DNA of 35,047 bases from Nitrososphaerota archaeon (lineage in GTDB: Archaea; Thermoproteota; Nitrososphaeria; Nitrososphaerales; Nitrosopumilaceae), in assembly GCA_029782475.1 (NCBI GenBank), contig JARPSM010000078.1, positions 1 through 35,047 of the forward strand. Direction: 5' to 3'. The translations under genes were made by a program, and so were the position numbers. Of the stretch, positions 3,497-6,058 are shown piece by piece (within the stretch, counting starts at the first letter, position 1; every line of letters starts with the position of its first letter). The notes under the pieces were generated by a model. That model saw only the letters and a program-made list of their open reading frames with translations. It was not told where the DNA came from and did not search any database.

Positions 3497-6058
3497 TCAA
3501 AAATAAGAGTCCAATCCTTCCTCCCTTTTAATTCCCATGATGTCTGATAATGTTTGAAGTATTTCGATCTCTTTGTTTTCTTTTGGATTTAATGATTCTC
3601 CTTTATTTCTTCTCAGGTTGAAGCTTTTTAGAATTAAGGAAACAATTTGCTTTATACTGTCTTCTCTGAAATTCTCTTTGTTTAACAGTGGATGAATCTT
3701 TTCAGCTCCTCTTGTTTCCACAAGATATGAGAGATAACATAATTGTTGATGTAAGTTGTTTCTATCTACATTATCTGCAGGATAGGTCATTTCTGTTTCT
3801 GATAGGTAGCATAATCGTTGTATTTTCTCTTCTTTAATTATGACATGATCTTTTTCCAAGCTTGATAGTTCGATTCCATACGTCTGGGCAATCTTTAAGG
3901 CATTATCTCCTACTATAATTCCTTTGTGAAAAACTTTGGTCAGTATGTAAAACGCCATTCTAGATCCAATTGTATTCATGCTTTTGTGAGTAATCTTTGT
4001 GACAAGCTGTTTCATTATAAAAGAACGTGCATTAGAGATTAGTGTTTCAAAGTCAGGAGTAAAGTCTTTGCGCCTACTTTTGAGTATGGTGTGTTTTGTA
4101 CAGGATTCCAAGACTTTACCATACACCATTATGAGCAAATCCGTAATTGGTAATGTAAGCAGTTTATCATCAGGTATTTTTTCAATCATGGTTTTGATAT
4201 TATCCTCGACCTGTGGTACTATATCCTCAAAGAATTCTTCAGAATCTTCAGTAATCTTTCTGCATGCGACAACAATAGATGACATGAAGGATGTTTTGCC
4301 TCTAGCTATCATGTTGGCAGGATTTTCTGTATGTATTGCATAGCTTGATACAACTCTAAATCTTCCACTCCTAATGGATTCTAATAGTTGATTCCATGCT
4401 TTGATACTTGAATGTGCGAAAAACACAACGAGTAATCCATCATCTTTTAATTTCTTGTTTAATGATGTAAATGATTTTTTCAGTCCTTCTTCAAAGAATT
4501 GTGATGCTAGTTCTTTATTACCAAATCGCCCCCAACTTTCACAAAAATCTTCTTCTAGTGGTATTCTTGGTGGTAAATCGGGATTTATATCTTTCAGAGC
4601 TCTGTATAACCAGACATAGAAATATTCAGATAGTTCTCCATACTGTACATCGTCTCCATATGGAGGATCCGTTATGATTAGATCATATTGTTCATCAGTT
4701 GGATTGGTAACTGATTCTAATTTACATTTAGTAACGTGATCTAAACGTGTTGCAAAGTTAATTGCCGATTCTATGTTCTTTATCATGTTTAGAAAAGATC
4801 CTCTTCCTTTTTCAAATGGGTTTACTTCACCATGATTGAAAATAATACTAGGACGACGGAATGTAAATACGTGTTCAATTTCCCCCCCTCTAGAATTCCA
4901 AATAGTCCCATATCCAGACATAAAGACATGTCTACATAACAAAAAGCTGAGATATACTAATAATGCAGACGGTATATCTTTTTTTATTTTTTTAATGTTG
5001 TTTAAAAATGAACTTAGTACAAGCAACTGTCTCTTACTAAAAAATTCATCCCAATGGTTAATTCCATAATGCCATAACGTATGTTCACGTCTATGACTAG
5101 GCAAGATATTCTCATGAGGTATTAAACCATTTTTTTCAAATTCTTTTTCTTTTGTTTTGAAAAACTCAGTGCTCTCTCTCTCTCTCTCTCTCTCTCTCTC
5201 TGTAGGCAAAATATAGTCTCTACCTTTGGATTTTTGAATCAATATTGCTATCATCTCACGATCTTTATTTTTTGCAATATCCTGAGTCATTGTTTTATAA
5301 TCAACACTATTACCACATGAGATACATTGTGCCTTACCTTGTCTTTGTGTAAATTGCTTTCCTTCAGATTCTGTCATGTTTTTAATCAGCTCAAAAGTAA
5401 AATTCTTGTCATCTGTTGGTGTAAATCGTATTCCAATTTTTTGACTTTTTGTATTTACTATATACATTTTATTTGTTAATGGAACACGTTGTGAACAATG
5501 TGGACATGTAATACACCAAAGCCAGAGATAAGACAAATGTTTTGGTGCGAAGAATTTTCCAATTTCTTTTTTAGTTTCATCTATTATTTGGTTAGCTAAT
5601 TTATTAAATTCATCTGCTAAATTATTTTTTGAAGATGCTGGAAATTCCAATGTAGCTTTTTCAATTAACCATGCAATTGGATTATAATCTGAGCATGTTA
5701 CATCAAGACCCATCTCTATTGCAGGAAACATCAAGTTTCCAGTTCCTGCAAACGGATCAAGAACTTTGATTTTGGCAGGATTTTTGCCTAATTTCTTTTG
5801 ATACAGATCAACATCTGGTCTGTGAGTAAATGCTCGTTTGTCACCATACATGCCAAGCAATGTTTCAACATCCTTTACATTATCCAAAGTACTTGCCAAT
5901 GCAACTACCCTTCCTACCACAAGTGGCTTTCTGGTCCAATAGTATAGCATTTTGTTTATTGCAGGTACTGCATTCTTTTCTTTTCGTGCCTCTTGACTCA
6001 CTTTATCAAATAATTCTAATAATTCTAAACTAGCATCTTCAATTACTGTTTTCTTCAC
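3497..6058 (-). CDS. DUF1156-type Zn-ribbon DNA adenine methylase with in-frame (AG)15 tract
   Basis: 853-residue class I methyltransferase of the type called adenine-specific DNA methylase containing a Zn-ribbon (COG1743/DUF1156). The SAM-binding motif I is DPFAGTGN at 101-108. Zn-ribbon cysteines are C182/C185/C188 and C245/C248. The catalytic motif IV is DPPYGDD at about 464-470, which points to N6-adenine methylation. Between the ribbon and motif IV lies TERERERERES (286-296), encoded by a perfect dinucleotide repeat. The start is GTG at 6058. A TATA-like TTATAATTAT centred 27 bases upstream (6081-6090) supports a leaderless transcript beginning at this GTG, as well as read-through from the ATPase gene. 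It sits between the 117-residue gene and the helicase gene, one base before the latter. The expected role is protecting host DNA from the partner helicase/nuclease, or marking DNA for it. The length and all motifs are complete in the current frame. Confidence 0.87.
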   Translation of the reverse strand: MKKTVIEDASLELLELFDKVSQEARKEKNAVPAINKMLYYWTRKPLVVGRVVALASTLDNVKDVETLLGMYGDKRAFTHRPDVDLYQKKLGKNPAKIKVLDPFAGTGNLMFPAIEMGLDVTCSDYNPIAWLIEKATLEFPASSKNNLADEFNKLANQIIDETKKEIGKFFAPKHLSYLWLWCITCPHCSQRVPLTNKMYIVNTKSQKIGIRFTPTDDKNFTFELIKNMTESEGKQFTQRQGKAQCISCGNSVDYKTMTQDIAKNKDREMIAILIQKSKGRDYILPTERERERERESTEFFKTKEKEFEKNGLIPHENILPSHRREHTLWHYGINHWDEFFSKRQLLVLSSFLNNIKKIKKDIPSALLVYLSFLLCRHVFMSGYGTIWNSRGGEIEHVFTFRRPSIIFNHGEVNPFEKGRGSFLNMIKNIESAINFATRLDHVTKCKLESVTNPTDEQYDLIITDPPYGDDVQYGELSEYFYVWLYRALKDINPDLPPRIPLEEDFCESWGRFGNKELASQFFEEGLKKSFTSLNKKLKDDGLLVVFFAHSSIKAWNQLLESIRSGRFRVVSSYAIHTENPANMIARGKTSFMSSIVVACRKITEDSEEFFEDIVPQVEDNIKTMIEKIPDDKLLTLPITDLLIMVYGKVLESCTKHTILKSRRKDFTPDFETLISNARSFIMKQLVTKITHKSMNTIGSRMAFYILTKVFHKGIIVGDNALKIAQTYGIELSSLEKDHVIIKEEKIQRLCYLSETEMTYPADNVDRNNLHQQLCYLSYLVETRGAEKIHPLLNKENFREDSIKQIVSLILKSFNLRRNKGESLNPKENKEIEILQTLSDIMGIKREEGLDSYF
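5172..5201. repeat. (CT)15 microsatellite inside the methylase gene
   Basis: Fifteen perfect CT units on the plus strand (AG on the coding strand) encode an alternating Glu-Arg stretch. I read the other two frames just past the tract. One meets TGA at once (GAG CAC TGA). The other runs 17 codons to TAA. Any slip that is not a multiple of three units therefore truncates the protein near residue 300 of 853. Confidence 0.95.

Follow-up and report, generated by a model that had tools for sequence, protein, structure and literature searches.

A long dinucleotide repeat in a methylase gene of a Nitrososphaerota archaeon most probably reflects phase variation of defence methylases by strand slippage, the explanation preferred here. 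The window, by which we mean the whole stretch of DNA that was analysed (35,047 nucleotides, contig JARPSM010000078.1), carries an (AG)15 tract inside the gene for a DUF1156 methylase of a BREX-related operon. The initial annotation had considered this gene to look phase-variable, and that reading is well supported at the level of sequence: the tract is extreme and decides on the reading frame, a second tract of the same genome interrupts the frame of another restriction gene, and relatives supply more cases. Given this second tract in an RM gene and the pattern in relatives, these archaea probably hedge their bets as to which of their defences are active.

The kind of switch is already known in bacteria. 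For host-associated bacteria it is well established that SSRs drive phase variation of restriction and methylation. In bacterial phasevarions, in which methylation regulates other genes, SSRs switch methylases of the type III mod and type I/IIG classes. The gene described here resembles these phasevarion methylases in that a non-triplet SSR lies in the coding sequence and on/off switching by slippage is predicted. It differs from them in that the methylase stems from a BREX-related operon.

The plus strand reads (CT)15 at positions 5172-5201, with a 100% perfect match according to the tandem repeat finder, which corresponds to (AG)15 in the minus-strand methylase ORF (3497-6058). The proposed switch was assessed by this repeat search, a frame test and codon reading. 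It is a pure SSR with a unit that is not divisible by three, and it is translated into ERERERERE, residues 287-295 of the 853-amino acid methylase. The tract is thereby situated between two Cys pairs (C185/C188 and C245/C248) and the catalytic DPPY motif (464-467), in agreement with the earlier placement of a perfect 15-unit repeat between Zn-ribbon and catalytic motif.

When the number of units is changed in silico, the frame remains open at 12, 15 and 18 units (851, 853 and 855 amino acids, respectively). With 14 or 17 units the predicted product is only 296-298 amino acids long, and with 13 or 16 units 310-312. These predicted off products all end before DPPY. It had been claimed that both alternative frames soon meet a stop and that slippage by one unit would leave about 300 of the 853 residues without DPPY. 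The frame test bears this out, as one stop follows directly after the tract and the other 16 codons on, yielding 296 or 312 amino acids at 14 or 16 units. All tract codons are GAG or AGA, while the neighboring genes prefer GAA over GAG (313:88), and such uniformity has a probability of ~9e-5 under local codon usage. With GAA as the common Glu codon elsewhere, this uniformity indicates that the repeat in the methylase gene is maintained at the DNA level.

At 15 units the gene encodes a complete DUF1156/N6_N4 DNA methylase (Pfam DUF1156 and N6_N4_Mtase) that is HmaB-like, i.e. a BREX-related methyltransferase (PADLOC HmaB, E 3e-59). All 17 residues that are invariant across the homologue set are kept. 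Among 30 homologues, the tract falls in a variable helical segment past the Cys pairs, and residues 287-309 form a confident helix in the structure model (mean pLDDT 83.7). The closest homologue, from Candidatus Nitrosotalea (57% identity), lacks the tract; it suggests that the host is probably one of the ammonia-oxidising archaea. From Y282 to P314 the methylase counts 33 residues, exactly as many as the tract-free Nitrosotalea homologue, so that 15 units yield a protein as long as its closest relative in this segment. The 95 genus genomes contain no near-identical homologue or second allele of the gene. Two homologues of 46-50% identity (G028 and G029; genomes, contigs and loci carry our labels G, C and L) are cut by contig ends outside the tract region. 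A sequence search returned no solved relative of the methylase, and a structure search gave just weak, generic methyltransferase matches. In a bacterial Deltaproteobacteria MAG, a (TC)31 repeat (L100:96-157) was noticed ~340 bp upstream of a Hma-type methylase; as it is upstream and non-coding, it was rejected as a coding switch.

The methylase adjoins a DUF499 ATPase and an SNF2 helicase in one operon on the minus strand. The HmaC-like DUF499 AAA+ ATPase (6445-9135, 896 amino acids) was recognised by Pfam DUF499 (E 5e-37) and PADLOC HmaC (E 1e-67). A small ORF of 117 amino acids (6095-6448) lies between ATPase and methylase; a 50% identical ORF occupies the same place in G028, and zero Pfam or PHROGs matches were obtained for it. 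The SNF2-type helicase (304-3495, 1063 amino acids) is HmaA/BrxH-like (PADLOC BrxHI, E 6e-100; HmaA, E 1e-96) and contains the Pfam domains Helicase_C, SNF2-rel_dom and a C-terminal NOV_C (residues 926-1009). Judged by these predicted proteins, the operon is an Hma, or DUF499-centred BREX-related, system. In the Type-1 variant of the latter, DUF499 ATPase, DUF1156 methylase and SNF2 helicase are adjacent as well and the helicase bears a C-terminal PD-(D/E)XK nuclease (PMC12839542). The present operon shares the ATPase, the DUF1156 N6-methylase and the SNF2 helicase with C-terminal NOV_C with this system, but differs by the repeat in the methylase, the extra conserved 117-amino acid ORF and scores far below the NCBIfam equivalog cut-offs (209 of the 1000 bits set for the anti-phage DUF1156 family and 230 of the 1200 bits for DUF499). 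The DUF1156 and DUF499 proteins are thus homologous to, yet outside, the narrow NCBIfam equivalog group, as a divergent member. In contrast to canonical BREX, none of the four operon proteins matched the PglZ phosphatase (Pfam, PADLOC) on this contig, which ends 303 bp past the helicase.

The closest known parallel concerns the Pgl system of Streptomyces coelicolor, where pglX is phase-variable according to Sumby and Smith (2003), as cited in PMC4365076. Pgl is inactivated when the 8 G in pglX contract to 7, and it switches at 1e-2 to 1e-4 (PMC4365076). Both operons are of the BREX family and have the repeat within their adenine methylase gene, and in both a shift of frame eliminates the methylase and switches off the defence, as is predicted here. 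However, Pgl involves a G8 homopolymer in a bacterium and was shown experimentally, whereas the present case is a predicted switch by a 30-bp dinucleotide tract in another methylase subfamily (DUF1156) of an archaeon.

The same contig encodes ValRS, PdxS/PdxT, aconitase, an adenylosuccinate-lyase-like protein, RtcB and tRNA-Trp. Two integrase genes are located within 11015-14658, between the defence operon and these core genes, which makes the region look like a chromosomal island. An HNH-like endonuclease gene (11964-12587, weak PHROGs match) was also observed between operon and core genes. Together, the integrases and the HNH-like gene beside the operon suggest a mobile island.

How unusual the tract is was estimated with a Markov model of order 3, for which 274 kb of the genome served as training data. 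By chance, 3.5 (AG)5 starts and 4e-12 (AG)15 starts are expected. Genome-wide, one search pattern found five AG tracts with 5 units or more, just two of them long. No (AC) run of at least 7 units was found by pattern search in the genome, and a 227-kb sample of its other contigs held no dinucleotide run of at least 6 units. Both long AG tracts of the 1.92-Mb genome are within RM genes. As the two genes make up 0.3% of the genome, the chance that both tracts fall inside them is ~1e-5, a rough and post-hoc figure. Both tracts were found via the search for AG tracts; just the later type ISP cases from relatives are free of this bias.

The second tract is the sole other one of at least 11 AG units in the genome. 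It comprises 13.5 units on contig C68 (20829-20856; L009:5830-5856), which presumably carries RadA, L21e and other archaeal genes as read from its ORFs, and hence belongs to the same chromosome. The tract lies in the gene of a type ISP enzyme that is split at the assembled length. A part of 638 amino acids contains the ISP coupler, N6_Mtase and Eco57I domains, and a part of 407 amino acids contains Type_ISP_C (positions 2-340 of 342). With one unit fewer or two more, the parts are fused in silico to 1,045 or 1,047 amino acids. Like other type ISP enzymes it thus has the ISP coupler, the N6 methylase and the Type_ISP_C specificity domains; unlike them, its helicase is a separate PLD-SNF2 gene, which precedes it, and the tract parts methylase from specificity domain. 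Decay of the gene is not favoured, as both halves score as intact domains. An off-register allele of an otherwise intact gene is thus at hand for C68 and for relatives, and none was found for the methylase gene. The 638-amino acid frame ends in TAATG, the ATG of which begins the 407-amino acid specificity ORF. On account of this overlap the parts might be coupled cistrons and not simply off: methylase and specificity may be produced as coupled cistrons in one state and as one fused protein in another.

In the proposed mechanism, the (AG)15 tract would act as a contingency locus, where slipped-strand mispairing during replication adds or removes 2-bp units. With 15 units, or a multiple of three more or fewer, the full DUF1156 methylase would be made, and other lengths would stop at ~300 amino acids, before DPPY. 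Cells would then differ in methylation by the Hma system and hence in self-marking. Restriction would probably be switched too, since the methylase, like that of BREX/Pgl, probably belongs to the complex that restricts. Another AG switch, independent in its position, is proposed for the type ISP gene, and a population could therefore contain various on/off combinations of the two defences. From this reading we infer the rate of slippage, the protein and methylation states and the benefit against viruses. The helicase indeed starts one base past the methylase stop, as the initial annotation had stated (ATG at 3493-3495, stop at 3497-3499). This spacing is the sole basis for the further proposal that the off state lowers the helicase via translational coupling, which we regard as rather doubtful. 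To judge from BREX/Pgl, the lack of methylase may be enough to silence restriction, in which case polarity on the helicase is perhaps unneeded.

Long AG tracts were also surveyed in relatives, using one pattern of at least 9 units, in 250 genomes of the family and 398 sampled from the phylum. They occur in 4/250 and 3/398 genomes, respectively, and a second pattern added one genus genome. Those inside genes are confined to two genomes of this survey: the present one with two and G065 with one (type ISP). All three long in-gene tracts of the 250 family genomes are therefore in RM genes. Intergenic AG tracts are present in G017, G295, G398 and G575, and as a few relatives have such tracts at similar length, a long AG tract need not have arisen as a switch. 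The tract of G295 (~(AG)16; G295:C1:127037, L031:1500-1533) is located ~50 bp upstream of a 188-amino acid membrane-type ORF and is a possible promoter-type switch. In G468, a CRISPR spacer that is mostly (CT)10 (G468:C1:2972530; L033:1498-1519) would match an AG tract.

Type ISP genes of relatives were subsequently retrieved by protein search and not by repeat. Several of these homologues carry SSRs, in open as well as broken registers. The gene on G029:C203 has (CA)21 and is broken at the tract; one unit more would give a fused frame. Open registers are seen with (AC)12 on G065:C102, with (AGACTCC)7 in G580 and with G11 on G029:C187. Both the G079:C33 and the G468 gene have C10 and are broken, and one base less joins each of them. 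Genome-wide, G029 has a single (AC) tract of at least 7 units, that of the type ISP gene on C203, and G065 has two, of which one is intergenic and the other in a type ISP gene. An SSR is missing from a similar number of type ISP loci of the family (among them G051, G029:C114, G432, G480 and G479), some of which are partial.

Three of the type ISP genes of relatives, from two genera, have a ~40-amino acid module duplicated in the specificity region, with one copy on either side of the SSR (G065:C39, G065:C102 and G580; L023:7287-7328, L128:9036-9059 and L169:3036-3084). The three registers have different predicted outcomes. In register 1, module 2 is read and translation would stop at a TGA that overlaps the ATG of the remaining C-terminal ORF (AAATGA, conserved). 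Register 2 reads through without module 2, giving ~1,590-1,690 amino acids, and register 3 truncates. In the terminating frame, module 2 shows 55-76% amino acid identity among the three genes, with changes concentrated at third codon positions, which indicates that this frame is, or was until recently, translated. On G029:C203 both modules are in one frame. The idea that the G065:C39 tract is a chimeric join (based on a change in GC) was dropped, as GC falls gradually and other genes have the duplicated module too. We tentatively suggest that the family could run a whole phase-variable defence repertoire, composed of the BREX-related methylase and many type ISP enzymes with their own SSRs, and that the type ISP repeat could also be a multi-register switch of the specificity region, a reading that may well prove too broad. 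If it holds, slippage in type ISP genes would alter the architecture and perhaps the DNA specificity of the enzyme, beyond on/off.

The main competitor for phase variation is a young neutral microsatellite that by chance came to lie in a mobile gene, at a helix tolerant of changes in length. It would slip like any other microsatellite, and the switching would be without a selected role. The variability of the linker among homologues, the nearest homologue without tract and the AG tracts between genes in relatives all fit such an origin. Nevertheless, we deem it improbable, because RM genes hold both long AG tracts of this genome as well as each of the three coding tracts in the family, and because type ISP genes retrieved independently of repeats again have SSRs, with unrelated units. 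Another rival is selection at the protein level. In that case, the (RE)n stretch would have been selected as a charged stable helix, with the DNA repeat as by-product and without selected switching. The confident helix in the structure model agrees with this. It is nonetheless very improbable: the uniform GAG/AGA codons go against local usage, homologues are without an RE run at the tract site, and the C68 tract, which has an unrelated position, is not in frame.

An artefact of assembly or consensus could likewise mimic a switch, if the number of units or the tract itself were wrong and the broken type ISP gene were a sequencing error. It is true that the genome assembly consists of 157 contigs and that consensus repeat counts may be one unit off. 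However, the tract is mid-contig and 30 bp long, the protein homology continues on both sides, and similar tracts are found in other, separately assembled genomes, so that there is hardly any room for this explanation. Slipped-strand phase variation is hence retained as the preferred reading.

The literature searched, which covered few subscription journals and is thus weak evidence, contained no report of SSR phase variation of a defence methylase in archaea. In the accessible text of an archaeal RM survey (PMC10609329), the word 'phasevarion' appears just in reference titles. A 2025 review regards the mapping of SSR phase variation across archaea and phages as a task ahead, and raises the question of whether phase variation at multiple loci is truly confined to pathogens (PMC11868660). 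To this question, an archaeal lineage whose BREX-related methylase and type ISP enzymes both have repeat switches would be directly relevant. If true, virus pressure and not host immunity would be indicated as the driver. Archaeal methylomes and 'broken' RM genes in assemblies may then be snapshots of a single phase.

Some further repeats were noticed. Poly-G tracts were given little weight as evidence, as runs of at least 10 G are common in G065 (132) and G051 (53). The present genome (G000), which is AT-rich, has nine such tracts, and more switch genes are possible. It also contains (ATTGG)5, a repeat of five-base units close to further genes (G000:C6; L179:3349-3373). Finally, type ISP genes of two genomes carry poly-G at the same helicase site, AEK(L/M)VG..GG (L133:947-957 and L130:6199-6208), one being open and one broken.
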